The translations under genes were made by a program, and so were the position numbers. This document shows positions 7,857 to 24,388 of a stretch of DNA of 35,671 bases, piece by piece (the stretch's first letter is position 1; every line of letters begins with the position of its first letter). This DNA is from Clostridium sp. (GTDB lineage: Bacteria; Bacillota; Clostridia; Lachnospirales; Lachnospiraceae), in the NCBI GenBank assembly GCA_031275405.1, contig JAISOV010000038.1, forward strand, positions 1 through 35,671, given 5' to 3'. Under the pieces are notes generated by a model, which saw only the letters and a list, made by a program, of their open reading frames with translations, did not search any database and was not told where the DNA came from.

Positions 7857-7863
7857 AGTGATC

Positions 7864-7933
7864 CTCCTTCCAAAGTCTGGAAAATTTATGCGTAACACCA
7901 AGCTTTGGCTGAAAGAATGCCCTTCTTTCAGCC
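7864..7933 (-). repeat. hairpin element upstream of a ribosome site, copy 1
   Basis: On the minus strand it has a perfect 11-bp stem (GGCTGAAAGAA / TTCTTTCAGCC) and then AGACTTTGGAAGGAGG, the ribosome site of the 7856 gene. The same arrangement and the AGACTTTGGAAGGAG block occur before dxr (28703-28770). The element overlaps the stop codon of the flippase gene. Confidence 0.65.
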
Positions 7934-9316: not shown

Positions 9317-10353
9317 TCCTTCTCCACCCCGGCTTTCTTCAGCACACGCTCCACGTACTGATCCGCGAATTCATACACGGCACGGTGGGTTTTTGAGTAC
9401 GCGGCGCTTTCGGGACGCTGGGAGAAGATCTTTTCCAGAACCTGCAAAGACACGTACCCGACCCCATAAGCTTTGATCCTGCGGCTGTTCACCGCGCCGG
9501 GAAGGAACGCGGCGAAGCTGCGGAGCTTCCGCAGCAGCACGTGTTCCTGCCCGCGGGTCAGATTCCCGGAGCCTGCCGGAGCCTCGTCCGGTATGCGGTA
9601 TTCGTCCAGTATTTTTTTGTAGAACGTGTCCGCGCCGTTTTTGGTAAGCGGCAGGGCGATCCTCCATGTACATTTGTGCAGATAGCTCCCACTTGTCATC
9701 TCACGCCACCCTTCCTCGGAAGAAGCAGAAGCCAGACGCGCTTGCAGCCTCAGGCACGCGCCCGGCTGATAGGAGCAGATTTTCTCGCTGCCCCAGAGGC
9801 CCAGCCGCAGCATGGCTCTTCTCAAAAGGAGATCCGTTACTAAATATGCAACCGCGTCGTGTTCCGAGTCCCAGTACGCCTCGAGATCTGCAAGGACTTC
9901 TGCGAACAGCTCGTTTCCGGCTTGGCCCGACATAAAAAAGATGGCATACCGGTTCACCAGAGCGCCCCCCCCGCTTCCGTCCGGTTCCTTCCGCCCGGCT
10001 ACGTCCCTCCGCCGTGTGTATTCCAAGGTAAAAAACTCCCTCTCCCACAGGCTGTCCGGCAGATCGGCAGAAAAAAAACAGGTGGCGTCCGCCCACACCC
10101 CGCCATATGTATGCAGAAGCGCAAAGCGGATATAGTCCGCATAATGCTGAACGGACATCAGGCCCTCTTCCAACCTGGCGCGGATGATCCGGGGGACGTC
10201 TATCCAGTCGCCGACGCTCCCGCCATCCAGCACCACGAGGCGTCGGCCGGAAACATGCGCCCTCATGGAGGCAAGACACGCTTTTACGAGCGGCGGCGCG
10301 TTTTCCTCTCCCTGCCGCCAGAATGTAAACAGGTACTGCGGTCTAGCTTTCAT
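9313..10353 (-). CDS. capsular polysaccharide synthesis protein (GT32-like glycosyltransferase)
   Basis: About 346 residues. ATG 10353 lies eight bases after AAGGAG. It starts ARPQYLFTFWRQGEENAPPL. It contains YADYIRFALLHTYGGVWADA, with the WxDA/DxD-type sugar-nucleotide site of the capsular synthesis/DXD-sugar family, then CFFSADLP. A G8 tract (9965-9972) encodes the SGGGAL loop about 128 codons in; at eight the frame is intact. It acts in the cytoplasm on the lipid-linked repeat unit; the sugar is not predictable. It overlaps wzx by 4 bases. Confidence 0.82.
   Translation of the reverse strand: MKARPQYLFTFWRQGEENAPPLVKACLASMRAHVSGRRLVVLDGGSVGDWIDVPRIIRARLEEGLMSVQHYADYIRFALLHTYGGVWADATCFFSADLPDSLWEREFFTLEYTRRRDVAGRKEPDGSGGGALVNRYAIFFMSGQAGNELFAEVLADLEAYWDSEHDAVAYLVTDLLLRRAMLRLGLWGSEKICSYQPGACLRLQARLASASSEEGWREMTSGSYLHKCTWRIALPLTKNGADTFYKKILDEYRIPDEAPAGSGNLTRGQEHVLLRKLRSFAAFLPGAVNSRRIKAYGVGYVSLQVLEKIFSQRPESAAYSKTHRAVYEFADQYVERVLKKAGVEKE
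9965..9972 (-). repeat. G8 homopolymer in coding sequence (frame ON)
   Basis: Eight C on the plus strand, read as GGG GGG GG. A gain or loss of one would truncate the capsular synthesis protein at about one third of its length. Confidence 0.85.
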
Positions 10354-10388
10354 CCCAATGTCTCCTTCCGCAGAAACAGTCCGTCGCC

Positions 10389-11384
10389 CTACTTTTGCCG
10401 CCGGATATTCCGCGACCAAAATAGCAGAATCTCAAAATAAGTTTTCACGTTTTTTGTATATCGCAGCGCAGCTGCCCAGTCGCTCCGCATGATTTCCCCG
10501 CAGGTCTCCAGCGCCTGCCGGAATTCGTCCTGTCTGGCAAGCGCCCGTATCCGGTGGCTCAGACGAAACGCCAGCGTAAAAGCGAACACCCTGTAGTACT
10601 TCCTGTACGCGGCGGCCCTGGGCGAGCCTTCCAGGATCTCTCTGTCCAGCTGAAGCTGCACGAGTTCCGCGTCCACGTGCTTTCCGGTGAAATGCTTCCG
10701 GTCTGTTACCGAATCGTCCCGGATGGTGTAATGATACCGGAAATAGCTGCTCACAACCACTTTCTCCGCGCGAAGCAGGGCTTCAAACGAATACACGCCG
10801 TCGTCGGACAAAGGAACCGGCCGAAACCGCATGTCCCGGACGAGCGCCCACCGAAAAGATTTCCGCACATATCCGCTGATCTTCCGCATGGAACAGAAAT
10901 AAGCCATTGCTTTCGGGCCGGGAAACAGCCTTTCGCCCGGGCGATCCCATCGCCCTTTCCGATCCACGCAGACAATGTCCGCGCCGTATCTTTCATGGCA
11001 GCGCACGAAATACGCCAGATAGTCCGGCTCCACATAGTCATCGCTGTCCACGAAAGTGACGTACCCCCCCCCACTTCCATTTTCTGACAAGTAATCCAGG
11101 GCAACGTTTCTTGATGGCGCCGGGCCGCAGTTCTTGCGGTTTTCCAGGAGCTTTATACGGCTGTCTTTTTGCCCGTATTCTCTCGCAATGCCAGGAGAGC
11201 CGTCTGTGGAAGCGTCGTCCACCAGATAGAGCGAGAAATTCGGGTATGTCTGCGCCAATAAGGAAGCCACACAGTGCCTTAAAGTTCCTTCCGCGTTATA
11301 TACCGGAACCACGACGGAGATAAGCGGCCCTTTTTTGCCCCCAGACAAACCGGACGCGTCTGCCATATGCTTCATATGCTTCAC
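10389..11384 (-). CDS. family-2 glycosyltransferase
   Basis: The best start is GTG 11384, seven bases after GGGAGGA. It lies inside the 3' end of the wzy gene (89-bp overlap). After a short VKHMKHMADASG lead comes the GT-A domain: ISVVVPVYNAEGTLRHCVAS, LYLVDDASTDGS, APSRNVALDYL, and the DxD-like FVDSDDYVEPDYLAYF. A G9 tract (11064-11072) encodes SGGGYV just before that acid motif. At nine the gene is in frame. Length (about 331) is normal for the family. Acceptor and donor are not predictable. Confidence 0.9.
   Translation of the reverse strand: MKHMKHMADASGLSGGKKGPLISVVVPVYNAEGTLRHCVASLLAQTYPNFSLYLVDDASTDGSPGIAREYGQKDSRIKLLENRKNCGPAPSRNVALDYLSENGSGGGYVTFVDSDDYVEPDYLAYFVRCHERYGADIVCVDRKGRWDRPGERLFPGPKAMAYFCSMRKISGYVRKSFRWALVRDMRFRPVPLSDDGVYSFEALLRAEKVVVSSYFRYHYTIRDDSVTDRKHFTGKHVDAELVQLQLDREILEGSPRAAAYRKYYRVFAFTLAFRLSHRIRALARQDEFRQALETCGEIMRSDWAAALRYTKNVKTYFEILLFWSRNIRRQK
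11064..11072 (-). repeat. G9 homopolymer in coding sequence (frame ON)
   Basis: Nine C on the plus strand, about 104 codons into a glycosyltransferase and just upstream of its DSDD motif. Any one-base change would remove the catalytic site from the product. Confidence 0.88.
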
Positions 11385-12564
11385 GGACTGATCCTCCCTT
11401 CCTCGGTCGCTGGCTTGCCAGCAGGAAATAAAACACGAGCCAAAAATAGGTAATGTCATACCAGTGTGACGTGATCATCTGCCCGAACAGGAAAACCACG
11501 GCGCAGAAGCCATAGAAGCTCCTTCTTGCCAGATTCGACAGAAGCCACACCACGGCGGCAAGCCCTACCCAGGAACACTCCATCAGGATCTGGATCATGT
11601 CCATTTCCATCCCTGTGATGGAATAGCCGCCCGTAGAAAACACGTTGTTCCTGATGGAACTGATTCCAAGAGTACCAAGTCCCCGCAGGGAATATCCCGC
11701 TTCCCGCAGCAGGCGCATTCTCCAGGAACGCCCCATCGTAAAGCCGTCCACGCTCTGCCCTGCAAGCCCGGTCAGAAGATCCTGAAACGCGCCCATGCAC
11801 AGGCTGTAATAGAAAGCCACCAGCCCCAGTACCGCGGCGCGAAGCACCCAGATCCATCTGCCTTTGACCCGCAGGTCGGCGAAGCGCGGCATACCCGCGG
11901 CCAGCAGAACCGGAGTGAACAGCACCGCCAGCCTTTTGAAAGCAAGCAGATTAAAAAGAACGGCTACGGCCAGGTCAGCTCTGCTTTTCCGGTTGTAGCA
12001 GAAATACAGGAGAAAAGAGATCGCCATCGGAGAGAACATGTCCGATTCAAAAGGGGACTGTGAATGCAGCCAGTCAATGGAAAAAAGCGCCTGCCTATTC
12101 ACGCTCAGCACCGGGAACACCTTGCAGAACAGATAGACGAGGAACCCGGCATAGAGAAAGACGCGCAGGCTGCTTAAGATTTCACGTTCCTCCAGGGACC
12201 GCGCAACCAGGTACGCCGCCAGAACCGGAAGAATGAATTTCAGCAGGGCGGCGGAGGTGATCAAAAGATTTCCGCCGTTTTTCATCCCCAGATACAGAGA
12301 GCAGAGAGCCAGTATGGCGACCAGTTTCCGCACGGAACGGAACTCGGAATCCAGTTTCCCCCGGTTCCCGGAGCCGCCGCGGTTTTTCCAGACCGCCATC
12401 GCGCAGACCGCGGTCAGCAGGACGAGCGCGGCGTTCTTCAGAACCTTTATATCAGAGCGTGCTTCAAAGAACCTCAGTTCACCGGTCATCGCGTCGGCGA
12501 CCTGAAGAAGGAAGCAGAGGTTCAGGATGACAAGCAGCCATCTACCGTTTGCGTTTCTGGTCAT
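11296..12564 (-). CDS. wzy: Wzy-like polysaccharide polymerase
   Basis: 422 residues. ATG 12564 lies seven bases after GGGAG and overlaps the end of the upstream GT4 gene by 23 bases. It has about ten hydrophobic segments (WLLVILNLCFLLQVADAM, AALVLLTAVCAMAVW, KLVAILALCSLYLGM, later FYGFCAVVFLFGQMITSHWY) and a long extracytoplasmic loop near GQSVDGFTMGRSWRMRLL, as in O-antigen ligase/polymerase proteins. Sequence identity among Wzy proteins is low, so the call rests on topology and position. The last 30 residues are hydrophilic and overlap the next gene. Confidence 0.78.
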   Translation of the reverse strand: MTRNANGRWLLVILNLCFLLQVADAMTGELRFFEARSDIKVLKNAALVLLTAVCAMAVWKNRGGSGNRGKLDSEFRSVRKLVAILALCSLYLGMKNGGNLLITSAALLKFILPVLAAYLVARSLEEREILSSLRVFLYAGFLVYLFCKVFPVLSVNRQALFSIDWLHSQSPFESDMFSPMAISFLLYFCYNRKSRADLAVAVLFNLLAFKRLAVLFTPVLLAAGMPRFADLRVKGRWIWVLRAAVLGLVAFYYSLCMGAFQDLLTGLAGQSVDGFTMGRSWRMRLLREAGYSLRGLGTLGISSIRNNVFSTGGYSITGMEMDMIQILMECSWVGLAAVVWLLSNLARRSFYGFCAVVFLFGQMITSHWYDITYFWLVFYFLLASQRPRKGGSVREAYEAYGRRVRFVWGQKRAAYLRRGSGI

Positions 12565-13678
12565 GTTCCATCTCCCTATAGAGCCTTTTTAATTTCAGGG
12601 CCGCGCCTCCCGCGTCATAGCCTTTGGCGGCAAGCGCCCCGACAGCCGCCCCGCTTCGGGAGGCCCGGTCCCTGTCCGGCAGGACCTGAAAGTCCGCTAT
12701 TTCCCTCGCCCAGTCCTTTACCCGCAGAGGAAGATAGGTTACGGTTACGGTTACGGTTACGGTTACGGTTTCCACGGCACTGTGCGCCAGGCACATCAGC
12801 CCCGCCGCCTGCGCCTCCAGCAGGGCGGTGCAGAAACCTTCAAACCGTGACGGAAGCGCGAAAAGATCAAAGGCCTGTAAATACTCCGCCGCGTCGCCCA
12901 CGCCCAGGAACCGCACCCTGTCTTCCACGCCGAGATCCCTGGCGCGTTCCCGGAAGCTCCGCGTCATATCGCCTTGACCGAGAAGCCACACTTCAAAATC
13001 CGCTTCCTTTGGGAGCGCGGCGGCAAGGTCTATCAGGAAGCCCTGGTTTTTCTGAAAAGACTGATGCCCCACATGACCGATGACGAGCGTGGAATCAGCC
13101 GCTTCGTGGCGTTCGCGCACGGACTTTCGCATGCCGGGGCAGAACCGGAACCTGTCCAGATCGATACAGTTGGGCAGCACGGAAAAACGGCGCCCGCCGT
13201 TCAGCCACTCCCCCGCCCCCCTCGAACAGGCAAAAGCGTCCGTAAGCAGACGCAGGTAGGCGGCGCGCAGAATCCCCCTGGCGATTTTGCGGGCGATGTT
13301 TGACCTGTTCCCTCCCACCGCCATGATATTATGGGAATGGGCCACGCGCACCGGGATTTTGGCGACCCGCGCAGCAGCCAGCTCCAGCGCCATGGTCTCG
13401 CTGCTGCCGTGGATGTGTACGAGGCAGTAGTTCCCGCTCTTCATAATCCAGTAGATGTCGGTCATGTAAGCCCAGAACTGCTTCCTCCGGGAGCTGACGT
13501 CCAGGATGTGGCAGCCGGACTGCCGCAGGACTGCCGGCAAAGGCGACGGGCGGGCGTCATCGTTTATGACGTCCACCGACCATTCGGCATCCGCAAATCC
13601 ATCCATATACCGGCAGATGTGCGTTCCGATACCGCCAAGTCCAAGGCCGTGGATGGGTATGATCAACAGTTTCCGCAA
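12542..13678 (-). CDS. family-4 glycosyltransferase with a hexanucleotide-encoded Thr-Val repeat
   Basis: 378 residues. TTG 13678 lies seven bases after GGAAAGGAG. The GT-B fold is visible: the donor/acceptor start LLIIPIHGLGLGGIGTHICR, PVRVAHSHNIM, VLPNCIDLDRF, VIGHVGHQSFQKNQGFLIDL, and the C-terminal SRFEGFCTALLEAQAAGLM with the conserved Glu pair. After that motif (HSAVE) the protein runs into five to six Thr-Val pairs encoded by a GGTTAC repeat (12737-12770), where family members have a variable loop. It transfers an unknown sugar to the growing repeat unit. Confidence 0.9.
   Translation of the reverse strand: MRKLLIIPIHGLGLGGIGTHICRYMDGFADAEWSVDVINDDARPSPLPAVLRQSGCHILDVSSRRKQFWAYMTDIYWIMKSGNYCLVHIHGSSETMALELAAARVAKIPVRVAHSHNIMAVGGNRSNIARKIARGILRAAYLRLLTDAFACSRGAGEWLNGGRRFSVLPNCIDLDRFRFCPGMRKSVRERHEAADSTLVIGHVGHQSFQKNQGFLIDLAAALPKEADFEVWLLGQGDMTRSFRERARDLGVEDRVRFLGVGDAAEYLQAFDLFALPSRFEGFCTALLEAQAAGLMCLAHSAVETVTVTVTVTVTYLPLRVKDWAREIADFQVLPDRDRASRSGAAVGALAAKGYDAGGAALKLKRLYREMEHDQKRKR
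12737..12770 (-). repeat. hexanucleotide tandem repeat (GGTTAC, 5.7 units)
   Basis: Five GGTTAC units plus GGTT on the plus strand. They are read on the minus strand as alternating Val and Thr codons. Unit changes keep the frame and alter only the length of the Thr-Val run next to the nucleotide-sugar site. Confidence 0.93.
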
Positions 13679-13741
13679 AGATCCGCTCCTTTCCTGCCTG
13701 TTTCAAGGCCTATCCCATCAAAAAACATGTCGGCGACACAG

Positions 13742-14677
13742 TCACCGTCCGTCAAACGCGCTGGGGATCTCATAGCTGCCCGCCGCTTTCGCCATTCTCC
13801 GGCCGTCTTTCACGCCGGAAAGGATGGCTTTCAGAATCCTGGCCTTTTCGCGGCCTCTCAGAAAAGAAGCGAAATTGAAAAGCAGGAAAAAGCTCAGGTA
13901 TCCTCTGCAATCATAGCTTTCGTAGCCGATACCGCCATATCGCTTGTGCCTTTTGTTCAAGTAAAGCATGTTACGGTTCGTATAATAAACCCTCATCGGG
14001 ACGACCGTCTTCCGATAACACAGCCGGCCGAGCAGGGGAGAACGGAAAAGATCCGCTAAGGATCCAATCAGCTTTCCGCCAACTTTACGCGGTTCGACTA
14101 TTCCGGACTCATGCCCCATCAGCACGCTGTCAACGCGAAGCAGCCTGTACCCCGCATATCGCACGCGTTTCGAGAAATCATGGTCCACAAGGTCTATAAA
14201 CAGGTCTTCGTCATATTTTCCCGCGTGTTCCCACGCCGATACCCGCGTACAGGAACCGCTTGTCACCGCGTAATTCAGCTCGCTCGTGCCTTCTTTCCCG
14301 TGAAACTTCCTGTATCCCCGCCTTTTATCCCAGAGAACCGGACAAAGTATTCCGTTTTTTTCATCGGCGGTATGCTTTGTGTATTCCTCCGCCATATTCG
14401 GCGCAAAGGAAAAATCCTGGTCGAAAGCGACCACCCACTCATACCCGTCCCGTGCTGCCGTCTCCATCACGCGATTCAGCGCGAACGCGATTCCGTGGTT
14501 TTCACCGGTACCCGCATAGGCGCAGCCCAGCCTGCGGAATTCCGCCGACTTTTCCTGTGGAATACCTCCGGGCGTGTTATCAAACAGATATACTTTTGAG
14601 AACACTTTTACAGCCCCTGTGATATTCTCACGCAGCTTTTCGCAGTCCGGGCAATAAAGAATGATCCCGGCACACAA
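13742..14677 (-). CDS. family-2 glycosyltransferase (rhamnosyltransferase-like), best start out of frame through (GACA)7
   Basis: The catalytic part begins CAGIILYCPDCEKLRENITG and contains FDNTPGG, the VVAFDQDFSF acid motif, TSGSC, FIDLVDHDFSKRVRYAGYRL and the HESG segment. These are typical of GT2 rhamnosyltransferase-like enzymes (about 312 residues). In the assembled frame the only start is TTG 14677, with no ribosome site. A well placed start exists just upstream: GGAGGAG (14732-14738), eight bases, then GTG 14723, GTT, ATA and the GACA repeat. That start is in frame only when the repeat number is a multiple of three (6 or 9). With seven units it ends after about 20 further codons. The gene is therefore probably OFF here. 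Confidence 0.85.
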   Translation of the reverse strand: MCAGIILYCPDCEKLRENITGAVKVFSKVYLFDNTPGGIPQEKSAEFRRLGCAYAGTGENHGIAFALNRVMETAARDGYEWVVAFDQDFSFAPNMAEEYTKHTADEKNGILCPVLWDKRRGYRKFHGKEGTSELNYAVTSGSCTRVSAWEHAGKYDEDLFIDLVDHDFSKRVRYAGYRLLRVDSVLMGHESGIVEPRKVGGKLIGSLADLFRSPLLGRLCYRKTVVPMRVYYTNRNMLYLNKRHKRYGGIGYESYDCRGYLSFFLLFNFASFLRGREKARILKAILSGVKDGRRMAKAAGSYEIPSAFDGR

Positions 14678-14682
14678 AGAGG

Positions 14683-15692
<1,010 letters not shown>

Positions 15693-15696
<4 letters not shown>

Positions 15697-16700
15697 TTGC
15701 CCACCCCATATTTTTTTCTTCTTGCCTCCAGCATTTTCACGATCAGATCCGGACAGACCATCATCACCAGCGCCCGGATTTTCTGCCCGGCGCTTACCGG
15801 AGCCAGAAACGCAGAAAATGCCTGCCCTTTTGTTACTTTTTTCGATAACCTGTACAGCTGGGGCGCCTTGTCCTTTGCTTTTGCCAAAGCGATGTAATCA
15901 TAGACGTCGCTGTGCGTGCGCCAGCTGGCGAACCGCCATGCCCTCATGACCTCCGGCGGGCAGCCCTTCAGTTTCCCCTCGATCAGCTTCAATGCCCGGA
16001 GCGCGGACTCCCAGTTTGCCATCCTGAAAACGGTCGTCCCTGAGTTCAGGTTGTCCCTGCGGTAGAAGTACACCCTTTGATCCGAACAGACGACTTTTGA
16101 GGATTTCAAAAAGCAATCGATATTGAAGCAGAATCCCTCGCCGTTATACAGACCCGGATCAAAGCGCAAGCGATGCCGCTCTAACAGGCTTCTCCGAAAC
16201 AGTTTCGCCCATGGCCCGATAGGCAGCCGGTAGCACAGAATGGCTTTTACCGCGTCAGGCCCGCTCATCACTGTTTCGTGCCGACAGCGCTTGCTCCGGC
16301 GGTCAAATGTGGAATACGCCCCGGCGGACACGGAGATGTCGGCGCTGTGCCGCTCCAGGAGAGTCACGTGATGTTCCACACAGTCAGGCAGCAGGGTATC
16401 GTCTCCGTCAACGAACAGGACATACTCGCCCGCCGAGGCATCGACGGCGTTGTTCCTGGCCGCGGAAACGCCCAGGTTTTCCTGGTGGACGACTTTGATC
16501 CGCGGATCAGCCTGTGCCAGATCATCGCAGATCCTGCCCGAACCGTCCGCAGACCCGTCGTCGATCAAAACGATCTCCAGGTTTCCGTAGGTCTGCTTCC
16601 TCACGCTGTCCACGCACTGCCTGAGGAATTTCTCTTGATTGTAGACGGGTACGATCACGGACACGCAGGCCCCTTCCCGGGTCTGTTTCTCCCCCCCCAC
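15693..16700 (-). CDS. family-2 glycosyltransferase, best start out of frame through a G8 tract
   Basis: GT-A domain: CVSVIVPVYNQEKFLRQCVD, VLIDDGSADGS, SAARNNAVDA, FVDGDDTLLPDCVE, then the PWAKLFRRSLLE and YFYRRDN segments common in capsule GT2 enzymes; about 335 residues. The assembled frame starts at GTG 16700 without a spaced ribosome site. The obvious start is ATG 16705, eight bases after AAAGGGAG. With eight G this ATG gives only a 16-residue peptide. With nine G it reads MEWGGEKQTREG into the enzyme. The gene is therefore probably OFF or weak in this assembly. Its 5' end overlaps the pyruvyl transferase frame. Confidence 0.88.
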
Positions 16701-17814
16701 TCCATTCTAAAATCTCCCTTTCTTCGCGGCTGGACTCTTCCCATGTTTCGACCGCCTCTCTCAGAAAATCCCACGCCGCTTTCTGATCCTCCGGTAATTT
16801 TTCTTCCAATACGGAATAATCGGTCTTATGGCTGAAAATTTCTGAAACCTGGGCGGAGGCACACAATCGATCTTCCAGCGCATATCTGCTAAGCAAGTCC
16901 CCCACTTTCTCCTCATTGCCCGCCTGGCCCGGCAAAGCTTTTCTTGCATACGCGGCAAATTCTTTCCGGAAGACCATGGAAAAAACACAGCCGTGGAACG
17001 TATCCGTGACCACGGCAAGCGCTTGCGCAAAAATACGCGGCGCTTCTTCCACAGAGACGGGAAGGAATCTTCCGATCCGCTGCGCGCCTCCGATCGTGAT
17101 GATGTCCCCCCCCAGGGCTTGCGCAAACTCACAGATCCCGCGACACTCGTCCTCGGAAAATCTTCCCGCATAACCATACAGCAGGCAGTAAGGCTCCCGG
17201 GGGACGCCCGACGGGCAGGCATATCCGCTCCAGTCGGCGCACAGCACCGGATCCGGCAGCACCGGCGGACTCTGGCCAAGCAGCTCCCGCACGATCTGAG
17301 CCGAATTTTCGTCTCTGACGGAGAGCCGGTCAAAAGAACTCAGGCAGTCCGAAATCGCTTCCGATAGGTTATTTCCCCTTAGTTTCCGCAGGGTGGTCTG
17401 GCCGAACGAAGCGGCAAAGCTTATCTTCCGGTTCGCTGTGGCGTTCATGCCAAAATAATCCTCCCTGCTCGCGGCTATCTTGTTTTCCTGGGTCACGTTG
17501 AATACTTCATCCGATCCGACGATCAGCAAATCCGGCTGTCTGCCGGTTTCTTTGAATTCTCCGGAATATTTCCGGAGAAAGGTAGCCTTAAACAGCAGGA
17601 ACCTGATTTTATCGCGCAAGGAAAACGGGGAAAAGGCAACCTGCCAAAAGCGCTTGACTTTTCTCGCGCGTCCCTCGCTTGGGACGCTGTATGACAGATA
17701 GCTGACTTGAGTCCCCAGGCGCTCCATCATCCGGCCAAGACAGCGCGCCTGCCAATAGGAACCGTAATTGGCGAGCCGGCACATGGTAAGTATGCCAACG
17801 TTCATCTTTGCCAT
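16522..17814 (-). CDS. polysaccharide pyruvyl transferase family protein
   Basis: The start NVGILTMCRLANYGSYWQA, the PDLLIVGSDEVFNV motif and FGQTTL match the family. So do VRDENSAQIV, VLPDPVL, and the late VTDTFHGCVFSMVF segment. The family adds ketal-pyruvate to sugars of surface polymers. ATG 17814 overlaps the end of pssE by 13 bases (coupled). Two G8 tracts occur. One (17106-17113) is internal and in frame (ALGGDII). The other (16691-16698) is at the natural C-terminus: at eight G the frame runs about 60 residues past the domain, antiparallel in sense to the GT2 frame; at nine it stops within 16 residues; at seven it would fuse to the next glycosyltransferase. Confidence 0.85.
   Translation of the reverse strand: MAKMNVGILTMCRLANYGSYWQARCLGRMMERLGTQVSYLSYSVPSEGRARKVKRFWQVAFSPFSLRDKIRFLLFKATFLRKYSGEFKETGRQPDLLIVGSDEVFNVTQENKIAASREDYFGMNATANRKISFAASFGQTTLRKLRGNNLSEAISDCLSSFDRLSVRDENSAQIVRELLGQSPPVLPDPVLCADWSGYACPSGVPREPYCLLYGYAGRFSEDECRGICEFAQALGGDIITIGGAQRIGRFLPVSVEEAPRIFAQALAVVTDTFHGCVFSMVFRKEFAAYARKALPGQAGNEEKVGDLLSRYALEDRLCASAQVSEIFSHKTDYSVLEEKLPEDQKAAWDFLREAVETWEESSREEREILEWSGGGETDPGRGLRVRDRTRLQSREIPQAVRGQREEADLRKPGDRFDRRRVCGRFGQDLR
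16691..16698 (-). repeat. G8 homopolymer at a gene junction
   Basis: Eight C on the plus strand. The tract is simultaneously the 3' end of the pyruvyl transferase and codons 3-5 of the ATG 16705 start of the next glycosyltransferase. Confidence 0.92.
17106..17113 (-). repeat. G8 homopolymer in coding sequence (frame ON)
   Basis: Eight C on the plus strand within the pyruvyl transferase. The enzyme is in frame at this length. Confidence 0.85.
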
Positions 17815-18305
17815 AACCCATTCACCAATTCTTCAAAACGCCGGACGAATTTTTCATTATTCCAAGCCATGCCCGTTTCTCCCCTCTTTTTTTCAGCTGC
17901 CAGCTCTTTGTAATGATCGAGCGTCCAGGCCAGCCTCTCGGTATCCTCCACCACAATGATATTTCCTTTCTGTTCCTCCACCAGCCGCGCAAACTTCACC
18001 TGGTGGTCATTGACGTGTTCGCCAAACCGCGCCTGCCTTGGCACGACGACAGGGATTTTCCCCGCACGGAGCGCTTCCAGAAAGGAAGCCGGCCCGCCAT
18101 GGGTGATGATCCTATCGGCGCGCTCCATCAGCTCCATCAGCTCACTGTATGGCATAAACCGCGCATAGCGACAATTCTTCGGCTCATAACCGGAATATCC
18201 TGTCTGGATCAGCACATCCTCGCGCTTCCCTGCGTTCCATCCGTCCACCGCGCGGATCAGCCGGTCAAATTGCTGTTCATGAGTTCCTATCGTCACCAAC
18301 ACCAT
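17802..18305 (-). CDS. pssE: PssE-type glycosyltransferase subunit (catalytic, Alg13-like)
   Basis: 167 residues, the usual PssE length. ATG 18305 lies seven bases after AAAGGG. The frame stays open upstream to 18482, but that stretch lacks family sequence. Motifs: MVLVTIGTHEQQFDRLIRAV, the ITHGGPASFLEALRAGK sugar-nucleotide loop, and VVPRQARFGEHVNDHQVKFA. PssE pairs with membrane-bound PssD to form a two-part transferase, usually adding the second sugar to the lipid carrier. Here pssD lies directly upstream. The 155-base gap to pssD is long for such a pair and holds no recognisable gene. Confidence 0.9.
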   Translation of the reverse strand: MVLVTIGTHEQQFDRLIRAVDGWNAGKREDVLIQTGYSGYEPKNCRYARFMPYSELMELMERADRIITHGGPASFLEALRAGKIPVVVPRQARFGEHVNDHQVKFARLVEEQKGNIIVVEDTERLAWTLDHYKELAAEKKRGETGMAWNNEKFVRRFEELVNGLWQR

Positions 18306-18460
18306 CCCGATTCCCTTTCCGGCCGTTCCAGCTGAACGGAAGCTCCCCCTCTGCCGCAAAATCCGGCCGGCAGCGCCATATTTTTCCTGAACTTCCGGCC
18401 CGCGCCTGTCTTGAACTGGTTTCCGCGCCGCCCCGGATCTGTCCCGCGCCAGCCGCGCCG

Positions 18461-19063
18461 CTAAAAGATAGAACCCAGACAAACCGCCCGCTTATATTTC
18501 CGCGCCGCCTCTTCCCACTGGACGATGAACAGATCGGCAAGCCTGTAAACCAGCTTCCCGGTCAGCGTCAGACCATCGACGCGGTCAAATACCTCAACGA
18601 AGACAAGCTTTTTCCCCATGAGCTTTCCAAGCACGAAGAACGGAACCGCGACAGCCGCGCCTGTGGAAATGAGGATGTCCGGCTTCTCTTTGTATAGGAT
18701 CCTGGCCGCCACGGCAAAATTACGAAAAAGATTCCTGATGTTGCGGTTCGTGGGAAAACGGCAGGGAAACATCTTTTCGCCTTCTAACAGTCCCCTGGCA
18801 TCCTCTTTGTCGAACGTGACCCAAAAGCGGTCGCGTTTCTCCCAGTATCCTTTTAACAGCAGCAGGTGCAGCAGGTGCCCGCCGGAAGAAGACAGGAGAC
18901 AGATTCTGGGAGAGACAGATTCTGGGATACCATGAATCCGCTTTGCGGACTCCATGGTTCGCGTGCGCTCGCCCAACGGTTGCCCTGCAACCGTTTTGGC
19001 TGCTTCGCAGCCGCTTGGCTCGCTGCCTACGCGTATGGCACCATCATTTTTATGTCGCCGCAT
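18461..19063 (-). CDS. pssD: PssD-type glycosyltransferase subunit (membrane anchor, Alg14-like)
   Basis: The family part begins ICLLSSSGGHLLHLLLLKGY (from about 18904). It continues with KPDILISTGAAVAVPFFVLG, KLVFVEVFDRVDGLTLTGKL, FIVQWEEA and the ending AVCLGSIF, all typical of PssD. Most homologues start right at this motif. Here the frame extends 53 residues upstream to ATG 19063 through a structured repeat (18924-19047) and a 16-bp duplication. In-frame candidates are ATG 19063 (GGAGG 14 bases away) and ATG 18955 (no ribosome site), so the start is uncertain. The repeat insertion seems to have separated the gene from its original ribosome site or given it a new N-terminus. Confidence 0.85.
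   Translation of the reverse strand: MRRHKNDGAIRVGSEPSGCEAAKTVAGQPLGERTRTMESAKRIHGIPESVSPRICLLSSSGGHLLHLLLLKGYWEKRDRFWVTFDKEDARGLLEGEKMFPCRFPTNRNIRNLFRNFAVAARILYKEKPDILISTGAAVAVPFFVLGKLMGKKLVFVEVFDRVDGLTLTGKLVYRLADLFIVQWEEAARKYKRAVCLGSIF
18895..18926 (-). repeat. 16-bp tandem duplication at the start of pssD
   Basis: Two adjacent 16-bp units (minus strand CCCAGAATCTGTCTC plus T or C) encode PESVSPRICL. Sixteen is not a multiple of three, so unit number decides which upstream start is in frame. ATG at 18933 would join the enzyme frame with three units. Confidence 0.75.
18924..19047 (-). repeat. multi-hairpin repeat family, copy A
   Basis: Read on the minus strand: a GTGCCAT-like end, GCGTAGGC, hairpin 1 (GGCTGC-GAA-GCAGCC), hairpin 2 (AACGGTTGC-AGG-GCAACCGTT), and hairpin 3 (ACCATG and TCCGC arms around AAA). 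It ends at GGTAT. It matches copies B, C and D in order and orientation. Its sequence is translated in the pssD frame. Confidence 0.82.
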
Positions 19064-19142
19064 TTTGCTTTTCCGCTCCTCCCATCGCTAGAAAACGGTA
19101 CCAGACCGCTCTGAACGTCTCGCATTTTTCATCGGCTTCCAT
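19050..19142 (-). CDS. small open frame upstream of pssD
   Basis: A 30-codon frame (EADEKCETFRAVWYRFLAMG, then GAEKQNAAT). ATG 19142 lies seven bases after AAAGG. It stops right where repeat copy A begins and overlaps the first bases of the extended pssD frame. It may be a leader that couples translation to pssD, or the remaining N-terminus of a gene cut by the repeat. The family is not recognised. Confidence 0.3.
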   Translation of the reverse strand: MEADEKCETFRAVWYRFLAMGGAEKQNAAT

Positions 19143-19318
19143 GTCCGAACCTTTCTGCCCATGAGCCATACCTCATGGAGGATCCGCCTTTTTCTTCCTG
19201 CCGAAAGACCGGCTTACAGCTGACCATCCAAAAATTCGGCGTTTCCCCGCTCAGGGACCTTAGGATTTCCGTCCCGCCGCCTGACGGCCTCCCTCTGTCC
19301 GGCGCTTTCCGCCTTCCT

Positions 19319-20062
19319 TTAATAGGCATCGCAGCGCAGGAGACAGAGGAGCGTCCTGCACAGGATCCTGAAATCCGTCCCTATGCTCATTTCCTCTATG
19401 TATCTCAGATCCAGTTCCATCCATTCGTTAAACGGCATCCCGCCCCTGCCGCTGCACTGCCAGTAGCAGGTCAGTCCCGGCCTGACGCTGAGCCTCTGTC
19501 TCTGCCGGGGCGTACACTGCGCGGTTTCATAGGTGACTAAGGGCCTCGGGCCTACCAGGGACATCTCCCCTTTCAGGACATTCACGAGCTGCGGCAGCTC
19601 GTCGATCCTTGTCCTGCGCAGGAATTTCCCCACCTGTGTCCGCCTCGGGTCGTTCCTCATCTTGAACGCGGGGCCGTCCAGCTCGTTCTTCTCCAGAAGG
19701 GACTGGCGCATTTTTTCCGCATCCCTGCACATGCTCCGGAACTTATACATACGGAACACCCTGCCGTGCAGCCCGTTCCTTTCCTGCCTGTATAGGACCG
19801 GGAAGCCGTCTTCCATTGCGACCGCAAGCGCCGCCGCCAGAAACACCGGCGACAGGGCCGCCAGCCCCAGGAGCGAGGCGGCTATGTCGAACGCCCTCTT
19901 CACGAAGCGGTAAACAGGCAGCCGGCGGCCCAGCCCAGGGTACGGCCGGCCAACGTCCCGCAGAGCGGGCATAGGAGAACCTTCCGTCCCGCAGCCCTCC
20001 ATGACGTATCCCTCTATTCCGTATCCTTCCATGACCCCCCCCCCCGTTCCACATTCTTCCAT
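19319..20062 (-). CDS. priming sugar transferase (undecaprenyl-phosphate sugar-1-phosphate transferase), poly-G tract near its start
   Basis: The conserved polyprenol-phosphate hexosyl-1-phosphate transferase domain is complete: VKRAFDIAASLLGLAALSPV (membrane segment), VLYRQERNGLHGRVFRMYKF with RSM, KFLRRTRIDELPQLVNVLKG, EMSLVGPRP, and RPGLTCYWQCSGR. It starts repeat-unit assembly. The N-terminus (MEECGTGGGVMEGYGIEGYV) is low-complexity and contains an 11-G tract (20035-20045). Possible starts in the current frame are ATG 20062 and GTG 20071. The best placed start is ATG 20067, six bases after GGGAAGGA, and it is out of frame at 11 G (stop after about 17 codons) but in frame at 9 or 12. An internal ATG after the tract could give residual expression. 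Confidence 0.9.
   Translation of the reverse strand: MEECGTGGGVMEGYGIEGYVMEGCGTEGSPMPALRDVGRPYPGLGRRLPVYRFVKRAFDIAASLLGLAALSPVFLAAALAVAMEDGFPVLYRQERNGLHGRVFRMYKFRSMCRDAEKMRQSLLEKNELDGPAFKMRNDPRRTQVGKFLRRTRIDELPQLVNVLKGEMSLVGPRPLVTYETAQCTPRQRQRLSVRPGLTCYWQCSGRGGMPFNEWMELDLRYIEEMSIGTDFRILCRTLLCLLRCDAY
20035..20045 (-). repeat. G11 homopolymer near the start of the priming transferase
   Basis: Eleven C on the plus strand, the longest homopolymer I see in the window, within the first dozen codons of the first sugar-transfer gene. Confidence 0.92.
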
Positions 20063-20130
20063 TTCATGCACCGTCCTTCCCGCTTCCGGCCTTTTCCACC
20101 TGCCGCTGTCTTTTTTTAGGCCCTCCCGCC

Positions 20131-20811
20131 TTAGCTTCCATCATAGCTGCCGTAGTAGCCGCCGTAGTAGCCGTACTCCCTGCCTGACAGGCTGGCCCTG
20201 TTCAGTACGCAGCCCAGGCTCCTGCAGCCAGCCGCTGACAGCTGTTCCTTCACTCTTCTGGCAAGGCGGTAGCTGACAGCACCGCACTGTACCACAAACA
20301 GCGCGCCGTCGCAGCATCTGGACACCACTGCGGCATCGATGACGCTCCCGAGCGGGGGCGTGTCCACGACGACCATGTCGAAGACTTTCCTGGCTTCCTC
20401 CATCATCCGCCGGAACTTCCCGCTGCCGAGCAGCTCACTGGGGTTGGGCGGCACAGGCCCTGCAAAGATCAGGTAAAGGTTCTGGATGTCGGTGGCGCAC
20501 AGGGCTTCACTGAATGCCGCTTTGCCCGCCAGGTGGTTCGTCAGCCCGTATCTGACTTTTCCTCTTTTATGCCTGGACCGCATGGCGGACTTCCGCAGGT
20601 CCGCATCGACCAGCAGGGTTTTCCTTCCGTTCTGCGCAAAGGATCTTGCAAGTCCGAAAGAGACGCTGCTTTTCCCTTCGCCCGGGATACAGCTTGTGAC
20701 GCAGACTGCCTTAAGTTCTTCCCCCGAGAACTCTATATTCGTCCTGAGTGTCTTATACGCTTCTTCTGTCCTGAAATCCTGTTCTTCCTTTTTTATTTCA
20801 ATGTCCTGCAT
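20131..20811 (-). CDS. cpsD: CpsD/EpsB-type bacterial tyrosine kinase
   Basis: About 226 residues. ATG 20811 lies six to seven bases after GGGAG. It has EEAYKTLRTNIEFS, Walker A SCIPGEGKSSVSFGLA, Walker A' LLVDADLRKS, Walker B VVVDTPPLGSVIDA, and a C-terminal tyrosine cluster (YGYYGGYYGSYDGS) that is the autophosphorylation site. It works with the membrane partner CpsC (next gene upstream, 14-bp overlap) and is dephosphorylated by CpsB to control chain length and export. Confidence 0.94.
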   Translation of the reverse strand: MQDIEIKKEEQDFRTEEAYKTLRTNIEFSGEELKAVCVTSCIPGEGKSSVSFGLARSFAQNGRKTLLVDADLRKSAMRSRHKRGKVRYGLTNHLAGKAAFSEALCATDIQNLYLIFAGPVPPNPSELLGSGKFRRMMEEARKVFDMVVVDTPPLGSVIDAAVVSRCCDGALFVVQCGAVSYRLARRVKEQLSAAGCRSLGCVLNRASLSGREYGYYGGYYGSYDGS

Positions 20812-21691
20812 GGCTTTCTCCCGTTCCCTCATGCCTTAAAATGCCGGCCGGCTGCGTTTCCGGGATTGCTTCCTCAGATCCTTGCGCCTGGCTTTTCTCC
20901 GGCTCCTGCCAGTTCCATAGGGCGGCCCTGAGTATTTTATCCGTCCGTCCGTCTTTTCTCTCTGCTCTTTTCTTCCTGCTCTTTTCCTTGTCAGCCGGGC
21001 GGCTGTCCGGCACCAGCGCCAGCGTACCCATTCCCAGGTATCTCTCCACATCCTCCGCCGACTTGATGGTGTCGTCCAGGAGGAAACGTACCACGACCAT
21101 GCCGACGCTGAACAGGAAACCGGCCAGTGCGCCGGCGGCTGTCCAAAGGGGAACGGACGGCTCCGCCGGTTCCAGCGGGAGACTGGCCTCGTCCACCACA
21201 TTGACCGCCTCCACGTCCGTCACGGACCGGATGTGTTCAGCCGCCATATCCCTGATCTTGTCCGCAAGATCCCGTGCCAGCGCCGGGTCTTGATCGGATA
21301 TCGTAATGTTGATGATCCGGGTATCCGGCTCGTTCGTTACCGCCATCCTCTTTACGAAGCTTCCGTAGCCCTCTTCCATGCCAAAAAAACCGATGACCTG
21401 TTCCACCACATGCCTGCTCGTGATCAGCTTCTCATAATCCTTTGCAAGCTGTGCCGCAAGCTGCGTGTCGCTGTAAGTCAGCATACTGTCTGTTCCCTTG
21501 TCCAGTATGATATAAATGCTTGTGGTCGATTCATATTCCGGTGCTATCAGGAACGCGCTGGCCGCGAAGGCCGCGGCTCCCGTGAAGGCCGTGAAAAAAC
21601 AGATAGCCCGTACTTTTAACAAGAGCAGCCTGAACAAGCCCTGTAAATCGATTTCTATGGCATCACTGCCGCCGTTCCCGCTTCCCTCCAT
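20798..21691 (-). CDS. cpsC: CpsC/Wzz-type chain-length regulator
   Basis: About 297 residues. ATG 21691 follows AAAGGGAC. IEIDLQGLFRLLLLKVRAIC leads into membrane helix 1 (FTAFTGAAAFAASAFLIA). YESTTSIYI follows, and helix 2 is VPLWTAAGALAGFLFSVGMV after the Pro-rich EPAEPSVP. The part between lies outside the membrane. The cytoplasmic tail (KEKSRKKRAERKDG) is unusually long and charged for this family. It activates the CpsD kinase and sets polymer length. Confidence 0.92.
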   Translation of the reverse strand: MEGSGNGGSDAIEIDLQGLFRLLLLKVRAICFFTAFTGAAAFAASAFLIAPEYESTTSIYIILDKGTDSMLTYSDTQLAAQLAKDYEKLITSRHVVEQVIGFFGMEEGYGSFVKRMAVTNEPDTRIINITISDQDPALARDLADKIRDMAAEHIRSVTDVEAVNVVDEASLPLEPAEPSVPLWTAAGALAGFLFSVGMVVVRFLLDDTIKSAEDVERYLGMGTLALVPDSRPADKEKSRKKRAERKDGRTDKILRAALWNWQEPEKSQAQGSEEAIPETQPAGILRHEGTGESHAGH

Positions 21692-21728
21692 AATGTCCCT
21701 TTCCGTCTGCTGCCGGATACGGAACCTT

Positions 21729-22544
21729 TCATCCGATCCCGAAATCCCTTCCCGCGTTTCCGTACAGGAGCGCAGCCGCGTAGTCTCCTCCATGCTTTTT
21801 ATGCAGAAGCTCCCTGCATCTGCGGATGGCCGGCGTCCTTCCGCTGCTCTTATGGGCGTCGGTGGCGATATAGTCCGCCAGCCCTTCCTTCAGGATCCGA
21901 GCCGTGAACAGCCCTGCTTTTCTTCCGGACTCCCCGGTCACGGAGCCTGCGTTGACCTGTATCCGGACGCCCATGCTTTTCAGTTCCGCTGCATTCTTCC
22001 TGTCCGCCAGCATACACCCGTATCTCTCCGCATGGGCAAGCACCGGACGGTACCCCATAGCCATGATCCCGTCCAGCGCGTTCCTGATGTATAGAAATCG
22101 GTCGCCCGGCAGGAATTCCACTAAGACAAAGGGACTCCCGTTCATCGTAAGGATCCGGCCGCCGTCCAGCGCTTCCTCCATCCCGCTGTGGAACAGCACT
22201 TCATTTCCGGCGTACAGAGCCGTGCCGATCCCTCTTTCCGAAGCGGTCTCCTTTACCTGCGCCAGGCAGCTGCGGATGGCCTGCGGGCCTGCGTGAGGTC
22301 TGCCCGGTCGGTAATGCGGCGTCGCGACTATATGTGTGATGCCTTCCGCTTCCGCTATGGAAAGCATCTGCATGGACTCCTCCATGCTTCCCGGGCCGTC
22401 ATCCAGCCCTGGCAGTATATGGCAGTGCATGTCGATGATACCCGCAGGGGCTGCCTGCCCCCGTTCCCTGCCTCTTCTCCAGATCTTTCCGGTTCCTCCT
22501 TTCGTAGAGTGCGCCCCTTGACGAAACGGGGGCCTGGCGCCCAC
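21729..22544 (-). CDS. cpsB: CpsB/CapC-type tyrosine-protein phosphatase (PHP family), first gene of the polysaccharide operon
   Basis: The PHP metal motifs are present: DMHCHILPGLDDG, THIVATPHY, PVLAHAERYGCML, and YIATDAHKSSGRTP. It dephosphorylates the CpsD kinase. The native-like start would be just before IIDMHCH, but no ATG, GTG or TTG is there with a ribosome site. The frame stays open upstream through inverted repeat IR1 (RQGAHSTKG) to a GTG at 22544, which lies in a strong hairpin. If the 22497-24145 segment is flipped, the frame joins ATG 24074 of the switch exon instead, giving MFSETPYGMQDGLALRQGAH and so on. In this assembly the gene is therefore cut off from its proper start and promoter. 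Confidence 0.9.
   Translation of the reverse strand: MGARPPFRQGAHSTKGGTGKIWRRGRERGQAAPAGIIDMHCHILPGLDDGPGSMEESMQMLSIAEAEGITHIVATPHYRPGRPHAGPQAIRSCLAQVKETASERGIGTALYAGNEVLFHSGMEEALDGGRILTMNGSPFVLVEFLPGDRFLYIRNALDGIMAMGYRPVLAHAERYGCMLADRKNAAELKSMGVRIQVNAGSVTGESGRKAGLFTARILKEGLADYIATDAHKSSGRTPAIRRCRELLHKKHGGDYAAALLYGNAGRDFGIG
22497..22525 (+). repeat. inverted repeat IR1 of the invertible segment (29 bp)
   Basis: Identical, as reverse complement, to 24117-24145 over 29 bases; both sides diverge beyond this. It begins TCCTTTCGTAGAG and ends CCTTGACGAA. It lies inside the open frame of cpsB, where it encodes RQGAHSTKG. Confidence 0.97.
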
Positions 22545-22558
22545 GGCGGCACGGCCCC
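22529..22558 (-). terminator. strong hairpin between recombinase gene and IR1
   Basis: GGGGCC (22529-22534) pairs with GGCCCC (22553-22558) and the inner bases nearly pair too (TGCCGCC/GGCGCCA on the minus strand). There is only a weak T stretch. It would limit read-through from the recombinase gene into cpsB in the present orientation. It also covers the GTG 22544 start. Confidence 0.5.
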
Positions 22559-22586
22559 TCCGGTTTCTTGACCAGGATCCTGACGG

Positions 22587-23714
22587 CTAAAAGCCTGCCG
22601 CCGCAAGCTTCTGCATGTTCTCCCGCTTCAGGTCGAAGGAGGGATGGACATACCGCCCGAGCGTGATCTTTACATCGGCGTGTCCAAGTATCTCGCTGAG
22701 GCTTTTCAGTTCAAAGCCCAGCTCTACGCAGCGTGTGGAAAACGTGTGCCTGAGGGCATGGAAATTCGCGTCAGCTATGCCGGCCTGCCTCATATAGGAC
22801 TTGAACCGGTTCTGCATTGTCCGCGGCTCCGCAAAGGTATCCCGTTCTCCCGTCAGGACGAAGGCTTCCGGATCCACGCGGAAACTTTCCGCCAGCGGCA
22901 GCAGAAAACCGGGAACCGGGATCTTCCGGATGGAACATCTGCTCTTGGGGGAGGTGGTCGTGACTTTGGTCTTCCTGCCGCCGGCGTCCGCTGCCTGGAT
23001 CCGCTGCATGGTGCTTCTGACACGGAGCGTCCCGGCGGCAATATCAAGATCCTCCCACCGCAGGGCACACAGCTCGCCGATACGGATGCCCGTGTAAAGG
23101 CTGAGCAGCACTCCGAATTTTGGGGGGTCGGTACCGGCAAGTAAAAAATCTTTCAGCCGCTTCTGCTCCTGCCTGGTAAGAACACGCATATCTTTCTCGT
23201 CACCCTTGATCCGTATGCGGTCGAAATCACAGCTGCCGGAAACCTCTGCATAGGCAAAAACGCTCTTTATGACCGTCATAATATCGCGGACAGTCTTAGG
23301 CGACAAGCCGCCCTGCCGATCCAGGCGGCCGCAGGCCAGCAGGGCGGCTGCGTAGCTTTCCATCATCTCATGGTCTATCCTGCCGATAGGATAGCTGCCT
23401 AAGCGGGGCAGGATGTGTGTACTGATCAGATTCCGGTAGCGTACATAAGTTGATTCTTTGACGCGCAGCCGGGTGCTGTCCAGCCAGTACGCCGCGGCAT
23501 CGCCGAACGACTGGTCGGCCTTTTTCTTCCTGCCTGCGGGAAACGGCTGCGATACCGCCGCTTCCCGCACTTTCTTCTTCACCTCTGCGTAGGTGCCTGC
23601 ATAGACGGAGCGGTGCTTCGCTTTCCCGTCTGGGCCGTAAGAAGCGATATAGCGCCCCTCCCACCGCCCGTCCTTGCGTCTGTAGATGTTCTCTCCTGTC
23701 CGTGCCATTTTCAT
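22587..23714 (-). CDS. tyrosine recombinase (phage integrase family), likely the invertase of the switch
   Basis: 375 residues. ATG 23714 follows AGGAAAGGGA. The N-terminus has an arm-type DNA-binding region (NIYRRKDGRWEGRYIASYGP, DGKAKHRSVYAGTYAEVKKK). It is followed by a SAM-like core-binding domain (YVRYRNLISTHILPRLGSYP). The catalytic domain has Arg in LYTGIRIGELCALRW, His-x-x-Arg in FHALRHTFSTRC, His in ILGHADVKIT and the Tyr nucleophile in LGRYVHP; all are present. It lies wholly inside the segment bounded by the 29-bp inverted repeats, so it moves with the DNA it is predicted to invert. Confidence 0.93.
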   Translation of the reverse strand: MKMARTGENIYRRKDGRWEGRYIASYGPDGKAKHRSVYAGTYAEVKKKVREAAVSQPFPAGRKKKADQSFGDAAAYWLDSTRLRVKESTYVRYRNLISTHILPRLGSYPIGRIDHEMMESYAAALLACGRLDRQGGLSPKTVRDIMTVIKSVFAYAEVSGSCDFDRIRIKGDEKDMRVLTRQEQKRLKDFLLAGTDPPKFGVLLSLYTGIRIGELCALRWEDLDIAAGTLRVRSTMQRIQAADAGGRKTKVTTTSPKSRCSIRKIPVPGFLLPLAESFRVDPEAFVLTGERDTFAEPRTMQNRFKSYMRQAGIADANFHALRHTFSTRCVELGFELKSLSEILGHADVKITLGRYVHPSFDLKRENMQKLAAAGF

Positions 23715-23854
23715 AAGTCCCTTTCCTGTTGTAGGGGTGACGGTTTCTTTGACGGCGAATGGATCCTTGCCCGCTGAAGCTTCCCCGGTTTTATCCTCAC
23801 ATGGCCAGCCGCAAAAAAACCGGGGGGTCCTGAATTTTTTTCAGAAGCGGATTC

Positions 23855-23971
23855 ATGGTACCACAGTTTGCTTCGCAAACCGTGGTTCGCGTACATTCGC
23901 TTAACGGTTGCCCTGCAACCGTTTTGGCCGCTTCGCGGCGCTTGGCTCATTGTTTACGCGTATGGTACCAT
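23855..23971 (-). repeat. multi-hairpin repeat family, copy B
   Basis: 117 bp with ATGGTACCA-type sequence at both ends. Minus-strand order: ATGGTACCAT, hairpin 1 (GCCGC-GAA-GCGGC), hairpin 2 (AACGGTTGC-AGG-GCAACCGTT), hairpin 3 (ACCACGGTTTGC-GAA-GCAAACTGTGGT). It lies about 140 bases upstream of the recombinase start, inside the invertible segment. Stem sequences differ from copy A but pairing is kept. Confidence 0.87.
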
Positions 23972-24022
23972 GGGAACATAAGGTATCGCCAGCAGATTTT
24001 TGGGGACTGCATAAAAAAATGC

Positions 24023-24054
24023 TTGCATTTCTCCCAGAATTGGAGTATTATAAT
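24023..24054 (+). promoter_or_regulatory. promoter inside the invertible segment, pointing right (operon OFF)
   Basis: TTGCAT (24023-24028), 17 bases, TATTAT (24046-24051); an overlapping TATAAT is at 24049-24054. GAGG (24063-24066) and ATG 24074 follow at once. It is the only good promoter pointing out of the segment. Inversion would direct it into cpsB. Confidence 0.75.
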
Positions 24055-24073
24055 AAATCAGTGAGGCGACCGT

Positions 24074-24226
24074 ATGTTTTCAGAAACGCCTTACGGTATG
24101 CAGGACGGACTGGCCCTTCGTCAAGGGGCGCACTCTACGAAAGGACGGAAGGGCTGCGCTTTTTTTGTGAAACGCCGAAATTCTAAATTCCGCTATGGCT
24201 CCCCGCCACTTCAAAAAGCTGATTGA
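24074..24226 (+). CDS. switchable start exon; 50-residue peptide in the present orientation
   Basis: ATG 24074 lies seven bases after GAGG. It reads MFSETPYGMQDGLALRQGAH, then STKG, through IR2 (24117-24145). In the present orientation it continues as RKGCAFFVKRRNSKFRYGSP to TGA 24224-24226. In the inverted orientation the same exon, up to the last base of the repeat, continues in frame as GTGKIWRRGRERGQ into cpsB. The frame match across both junctions was checked codon by codon. The peptide has no known family; its main role is probably to supply a start. Confidence 0.7.
   Translation: MFSETPYGMQDGLALRQGAHSTKGRKGCAFFVKRRNSKFRYGSPPLQKAD
24117..24145 (-). repeat. inverted repeat IR2 of the invertible segment (29 bp)
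   Basis: Reverse complement of IR1 (22497-22525) without mismatch. It begins TTCGTCAAGGGGCG on the plus strand. Confidence 0.97.
24128..24166 (+). terminator. possible terminator just outside IR2
   Basis: GCGCA (24128-24132) can pair with TGCGC (24155-24159), followed by seven T (24160-24166). The stem is short. It would stop transcripts from the switch promoter in the present (OFF) orientation. Confidence 0.4.
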
Positions 24227-24247
24227 AAAGCATTGACAAAATCAGAA

Positions 24248-24361: not shown

Positions 24362-24388
24362 GACAGAACAGGACTTCCCTGCTATGAT
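24360..24388 (+). promoter_or_regulatory. near-consensus promoter of the phosphatase/kinase genes
   Basis: TTGACA (24360-24365), a 17-base spacer, TATGAT (24383-24388). It is the best sigma-A type promoter in the window. It reads toward the phosphatase gene at 24647. Confidence 0.75.

Follow-up and report, generated by a model that had tools for sequence, protein, structure and literature searches.

Does a 1.6-kb segment of DNA that carries its own recombinase and a promoter-like sequence, and that lies between inverted repeats at the head of a polysaccharide operon, act as a self-contained invertible switch? The locus lies in Clostridium sp. (Lachnospiraceae; assembly GCA_031275405.1, 2.98 Mb, 84% complete), on contig JAISOV010000038.1, whose positions 1 to 35,671, read on the forward strand, make up the window analysed here (35,671 nucleotides (nt)). 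An earlier, sequence-only reading had proposed such a switch, now in its OFF position. Comparison with related loci strongly supports the switch reading, and the segment is very probably a self-contained invertible promoter cassette, because its architecture recurs, spacers are identical within each locus, an outward promoter is found across the family, and opposite orientations occur at shared flanks. The features on which the argument turns are as follows:

22500..22526, + strand: predicted recombination site beside cpsB, TTTCGTAGAG-TGCGCCC-CTTGACGAAA, within the repeat arm 22497-22525 plus 1 nt
24116..24142, + strand: predicted recombination site at the far end, CTTCGTCAAG-GGGCGCA-CTCTACGAAA, within the repeat arm 24117-24145 plus 1 nt; same spacer, inverted
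22587..23714, - strand: tyrosine recombinase gene, 375 amino acids, PF00589 (Phage_integrase, E-value 1.1e-22) plus PF14659; frame intact
24023..24051, + strand: promoter-like sequence TTGCAT-17-TATTAT (TTGCAT at 24023-24028, TATTAT at 24046-24051), pointing right, away from cpsB
21729..22421, - strand: cpsB (CpsB/CapC family), first gene of the operon, PF19567 (E-value 9e-84); coordinates from the ATG of MHCH
6880..22421, - strand: predicted polysaccharide operon, from open reading frames (ORFs), with protein families for its first four genes and the remainder assigned by eye

In the proposed mechanism, the recombinase is predicted to act on the two identical inverted sites and to flip the whole segment. 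The present orientation, with the promoter directed away from cpsB, would be OFF, and the flipped orientation, with the promoter directed into the polysaccharide operon, would be ON; in the window, the flip would in addition place an ATG, with a Shine-Dalgarno sequence before it, in frame with cpsB. What we infer is that this enzyme works on the two sites and inverts the segment in this organism, and that the promoter is active; the present silence of the operon and its control by the cassette are likewise inferred.

A recombinase between inverted sites

The perfect 29-bp inverted repeat of the sequence-only reading was recovered exactly: a repeat search of the window returned arms of 29 nt each at 22497-22525 and 24117-24145, 100% complementary and 1591 nt apart. 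This pair is the longest perfect inverted repeat within 21500-25500, and it bounds the segment in the manner of an inverton. Allowing up to 3 mismatches, no third place in the 2.98-Mb assembly matched the 29-mer (a reversed control gave 0 matches). Between the two sites, the ORF list holds one recombinase gene and no other mobile-element gene.

The enclosed ORF matches PF00589, as expected for the tyrosine recombinase that had been read there. Residues R211, K248, H319, R322, H345 and Y355, which we take to be the catalytic positions of tyrosine recombinases, are invariant across five aligned recombinases and all in place in the window protein, so that both domain and expected residues assign it to the tyrosine recombinases of PF00589. 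A search with the window protein found no second copy in the source genome at E ≤ 0.001. A structural model built from five sequences (mean predicted local distance difference test, pLDDT, 75; predicted template modelling score, pTM, 0.52; poor C-terminus) predicts a three-strand domain at the N-terminus. The nearest solved relatives, both by sequence and by predicted fold, are Tn1549 integrase structures, with about 22% of residues identical in the fold alignment.

Homologous recombinases (E ≤ 1e-60) occur in 80 of the 397 sampled genomes of the same family, Lachnospiraceae, the source genome counted, and the nearest among the fetched loci is 56% identical to that of the window. One homologue cluster, which takes its name from Agathobacter rectalis, comprises 871 contigs, and related recombinases were also found in gut phage and IMG/VR contigs. 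Plasmid and phage searches returned only relatives below 60% identity; scans of viral contigs revealed related cassettes, but in no case was nearly the same locus seen both ways round.

Related cassettes and their orientation

We compared 66 loci, namely the window and 65 relatives, of which five came from one search (a distant locus, L009, was left out) and 60 were the best of 103 genomic places; these 103 are the listed Lachnospiraceae recombinase matches apart from the window's own, and 80 of them were fetched in total. Loci were oriented by the recombinase, and each flank was searched for a palindromic site by its arms alone. The family site is 27 bp long and consists of a 10-bp arm (consensus TTTCGTAGAG), a 7-bp spacer and a second 10-bp arm. 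In 38 of the 66 loci the left and right spacers are identical at 7/7 positions in inverted register, a match seen in 0.5% of comparisons between different loci. When loci were picked by arm scores alone (both above 9), 37 of 39 showed 7/7 spacer identity; in these same 39 loci the arms differ at 108 of 780 positions and the spacers at 11 of 273, all of them in L057 and L081. Spacers are thus the same within a locus and different between loci, and the window conforms, with two inverted sites carrying identical 7-bp spacers around its recombinase. Twenty further places, which we chose ourselves, contributed 11 more clean cassettes. For an initial, looser inverted-repeat scan, the control of 200 mismatched-locus pairs reached a best score of 19. 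The position of the recombinase inside the predicted invertible segment, to which the sequence-only reading had drawn attention, is real here but not peculiar to this locus, as it is the usual layout of the family. A second layout is found in L047, L071 and L095: here the two sites sit next to the recombinase, and their starts are separated by 390, 251 and 216 bp, respectively.

Some genomes carry several cassettes. One (G114) has four (L060, L067, L068, L069), almost alike in their arms but each with a spacer of its own, and another (G366) likewise has four (L049, L128, L135, L138) with four different spacers. Different spacers between unrelated loci are expected by chance; because close copies in one genome still differ in their spacers (DNA identity 87% for L060/L067, 85% for L068/L069 and 75% for L128/L138), the pattern suggests that private spacers may insulate cassettes sharing a genome, which we offer as an idea and not as a result.

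The outward promoter is likewise a family trait. In 37 cassettes, the best outward sigma-70-like promoter within 130 bp of the site matched the consensus hexamers at 10.6 of 12 positions on average; shuffled sequences gave 8.5, the other end of the cassette 7.9 and sequence outside it 8.2. Where both directions were scored (23 of 38 loci), the outward match beat the inward one in 21 and tied in 2. The TTGCAT-17-TATTAT sequence of the window has the sequence, place and direction first ascribed to it, but as a promoter it is weak by sequence: it has 8/12 hexamer matches, was not picked up by a consensus promoter scan and is no better than shuffled cassette ends (mean 8.5). Its weight comes from its location, which in most related cassettes is occupied by a stronger outward promoter. 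Positions 24046-24055 (TATTATAATA) are their own reverse complement, and the -10 region could therefore serve promoters both ways, outward and toward the recombinase.

To compare orientations, the oriented loci were aligned by DNA and pairs were taken as sharing a flank at 150 bits or more. Among pairs of two clean cassettes, 24 had the same orientation, 17 the opposite and 0 were inconsistent; across all 93 loci, clean or not, the counts were 45, 36 and 8. In opposite pairs the recombinases run in the same direction, with the homologous flank on the other side and reversed. These pairs are not independent because many share members, and the 17 opposite pairs form four groups: TnpB-like targets, with L084 and L135 against L048, L049, L051, L092, L134 and L142 (not every combination passes); L060/L067; L045/L080; and L146 against L088, L128 and L138. 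The clearest breaks fall at the sites themselves. Positions 2-5740 of L084 match 12852-7159 of L092, with homology stopping at the inner edges of both sites, and positions 7003-8959 of L060 match 5661-3816 of L067, with homology beginning within 8 bases of the sites, in two NusG-led loci of the same genome (G114). Homology ends inside a site in two other comparisons, L044 5265-5823 with L102 6748-6194 (L102 being identical in sequence to L101) and L005 6719-7799 with L099 2529-1449; neither L102 nor L099 has a recognisable left site. A further opposite group sets L083, which has no clean sites, against L085 and L090. Because shared-flank pairs occur in the same or the opposite orientation, with homology breaking at the site in the best pairs, the DNA comparisons indicate that inversion has occurred in the cassette family. 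A single orientation fixed in all relatives, which the sequence-only reading had named as a result that would speak against a switch, is not what the 17 opposite clean pairs of the family show.

An automated ON/OFF count from neighbouring ORFs (42 loci: 23 right, 6 left, 10 both, 3 neither) was set aside as unreliable; it mis-sorted the window because of antisense ORFs, and the shared-flank pairs were therefore used instead. A quickly built tree of 72 recombinases places the window in a supported set of nine (98), all filed as cassettes, although L099 and L100 show only one site each. The neighbours across this set differ and include cps genes, an ATP-binding cassette (ABC) transporter (L007), a ThiF-type operon (L004), HerA-like proteins (L005, L006) and a LytTR regulator (L039), among others. 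The seven rows read as ON require seven changes on the tree, where ON and OFF were judged by eye from the neighbours and ten cassette rows were excluded from the count.

Several findings weigh against the switch reading. A clean flanking site pair is absent from 28 of the 66 loci and from 9 of the 20 added loci. The window promoter lies at the weak end of the family (two loci of 37 score 8), and 8 of the 89 pairs from all 93 loci are inconsistent with a simple flip. The compared flanks are diverged, at about 58-81% DNA identity, and separate insertions could explain part of the pattern. Finally, opposite orientations were seen only between related loci, and a flipped copy of the locus is known from no read, isolate or near relative, the genus searched consisting of the source genome alone.

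The cpsB start and rival explanations

The start of cpsB bears on both the mechanism and its alternatives. In the window, the stretch from the site to the conserved PAGIIDMHCH region contains no in-frame ATG, GTG or TTG; beyond the cassette, the first candidate is the ATG of MHCH, which has no Shine-Dalgarno sequence, and the gene call in the protein collection begins there (P0001, 233 amino acids). Among the 120 cpsB homologues listed, 117 have residues ahead of the DxHxH motif, the gene calls of P0001 and P0074 begin at MHCH, and that of P0098 begins further on. The PAGIID part is translated as a rule, because the nearest CpsB homologue (63%) reads MRKNRIPAGIIDMHCH. The cassette end holds a candidate start:

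24063-24066 (GAGG) and 24074-24076 (ATG), + strand: putative Shine-Dalgarno sequence and start codon, in frame with cpsB if the cassette is flipped

It is plausible, but not established, that the flipped cassette would supply cpsB with an in-frame start codon and its Shine-Dalgarno sequence. Across the 37 loci examined, five ATGs preceded by a Shine-Dalgarno sequence occur in the cassette end, and the sole one open through the site is that of the window (0 of 36 others); in most other loci the target has its own start codon near the site. Against this idea, one such frame could arise by chance, and the window has an in-frame ATC, a possible rare start, 10 nt past AAAGGAGG.

These same observations admit other explanations. 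The one that survives best holds that the cassette formerly switched the operon and is now locked, its weak promoter and the missing cpsB start being signs of decay, with the operon silent or read from elsewhere. A promoter among the lowest of the 37, the lack of any cpsB ATG, GTG or TTG outside the cassette ahead of MHCH, and a repeat that has entered the cassette would all fit such decay, but the 29-bp sites are still perfect, the recombinase retains an intact frame and catalytic positions, and the operon's first genes other than cpsB give family matches that cover most of each gene, so that we regard a locked cassette as unlikely. Less likely still is that the segment flips but is ON at present, with the recombinase's promoter reading through the recombinase into cpsB and a flip turning the operon off. 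The recombinase does now read toward cpsB, and by a crude count it is co-oriented with the adjacent gene in many relatives; this is opposed by the family's stronger promoter, which points outward at the other end (as in 21 of the 23 scored loci, with 2 ties), and by the lack of a good cpsB start codon in the present orientation.

The segment might also be the remnant of an integrated mobile element, with a Tn916/Tn1549-like integrase between its ends and no switching role, a reading to which we give very little credence. The kinship with Tn1549 integrases and the related recombinases in gut phage and IMG/VR contigs point that way. Integrated elements are expected to have direct-repeat ends; those of the segment form an inverted pair that shares one asymmetric spacer. 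A Tn916/Tn1549-like element would have transfer genes and direct-junction ends, and the segment has one gene between inverted ends, with no further mobile-element gene. The inverted ends, the recurrence of an outward promoter at one end, and the breaks of homology at the site, with opposite orientations, led us to reject it as the principal explanation. A chance repeat was likewise rejected, a 29-bp perfect pair in 4 kb having a probability of about 1e-11 by our own estimate.

The switch reading can be extended into a broader picture, which we put forward tentatively, as possible more than probable. Gut Clostridia would harbour a large family of portable, self-flipping promoter cassettes, each with its own recombinase, duplicated before unrelated operons and insulated by private spacers. 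The window cassette would bring a ribosome-binding site and a start codon together with its promoter, so that the site would be translated into CpsB and the OFF state would block both transcription and translation. If the cassette works as proposed, this bacterium would phase-vary its capsule-type polysaccharide by means of a module independent of any outside recombinase, and the cassettes would then offer Clostridia a common route to surface heterogeneity. Units of this kind, self-contained and differing in their spacers, might also be worth trying as orthogonal genetic switches.

Known systems and neighbouring genes

According to the excerpts of PMC5903667 used here, recombinases occasionally lie within the invertible segment, Hin being an example. 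The Hin/hix switch of Salmonella has both the recombinase gene and a promoter inside the segment, and the segment in the window likewise encloses its recombinase gene, together with a promoter-like sequence. Hin, though, is a serine recombinase of a flagellar switch, whereas the window protein is of the tyrosine type, from another family (PF00589), with a polysaccharide operon as its target, and does not belong to the Hin-type serine invertases. The same excerpts describe an 844-bp invertible segment of Providencia stuartii that encloses a recombinase ORF and adjoins a fimbriae locus; it differs from the window in its 14-bp imperfect repeats and its phylum, and the likeness is one of layout. 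They also describe Mpi, which inverts polysaccharide regions in Bacteroides fragilis (PMC5903667); DNA inversion at polysaccharide promoters is what it would share with the window cassette. Mpi is there a single serine-type master recombinase for at least 13 regions, whereas the window family has a tyrosine-type enzyme inside each segment.

Inverton group 139, as excerpted from PMC11892184, comprises 33 invertons, 32 of them from Clostridia, linked to a tyrosine-type recombinase (invertase group 35), and reads show changing orientation. The short layout of L047, L071 and L095 resembles that of these invertons. The group's quoted examples are about 200-250 bp long with the invertase nearby (PMC11892184), in contrast to the window, where the recombinase is inside the segment. 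The Tn1549 integrase moves a transposon, and the window segment, which holds no transfer genes, is read instead as promoter-flipping. General background is also given in excerpts of PMC8748976 and PMC11868660. In the open-access literature searched, judged by titles, openings of abstracts and excerpts, we found no description of the cassette family, and the papers listed by a text search there for the site motif were all unrelated by title.

The polysaccharide operon runs leftward on the - strand from cpsB in the order cpsB, cpsC, cpsD and a sugar transferase gene, and its ORFs span about 15.5 kb, in line with the 15-kb operon headed by cpsB that had been described from sequence. On the right flank are an ORF with a weak phosphatase match (E-value 7.5e-4, far under the cut-off) and a protein kinase gene, and a fixed TTGACA-17-TATGAT lies at 24360-24388 on their strand. 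A terminator considered at the right flank (24115-24172) was unsupported (z -1.23); the terminator scan returned a single terminator-like site, within the recombinase gene, which is fewer than in shuffles. An Rfam scan of the window gave nothing at gathering thresholds. One further feature lies inside the cassette:

23840..23985, no strand assigned: hairpin-rich repeat with many partial copies in the genome

Counting itself, this repeat has 44 full or partial matches in the genome (of 57 candidates, 40 were scored), and one copy, at 18952-19044, is inside the polysaccharide operon.

Family-wide, the genes beside the cassettes are varied and often predicted to act at the cell surface; they include polysaccharide loci, Tad-type and other pilus genes, adhesin-like proteins, TnpB-like proteins, a ThiF-type operon and a transporter. 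In L048 (7255-8604), L049 (4513-5838), L084 (4323-5663) and L092 (7227-8597), the cassette-adjacent gene encodes a TnpB/Cas12f-like protein (PF07282). The acidic RuvC residues seem to be lost in all four aligned proteins and the zinc-finger cysteines kept, at motif positions that we presume to be those of the RuvC and zinc-finger motifs, and the protein looks like a nuclease-dead, TldR-like regulator that would be under an invertible promoter. L083, L085 and L090 have cassettes or cassette-like recombinases by Tad/type II secretion-type genes (T2SSE in L085, TadZ-like in L090). In L044, an rRNA adenine methyltransferase gene (PF00398, 7663-8400) starts about 450 bp past the cassette, on the recombinase-downstream side.

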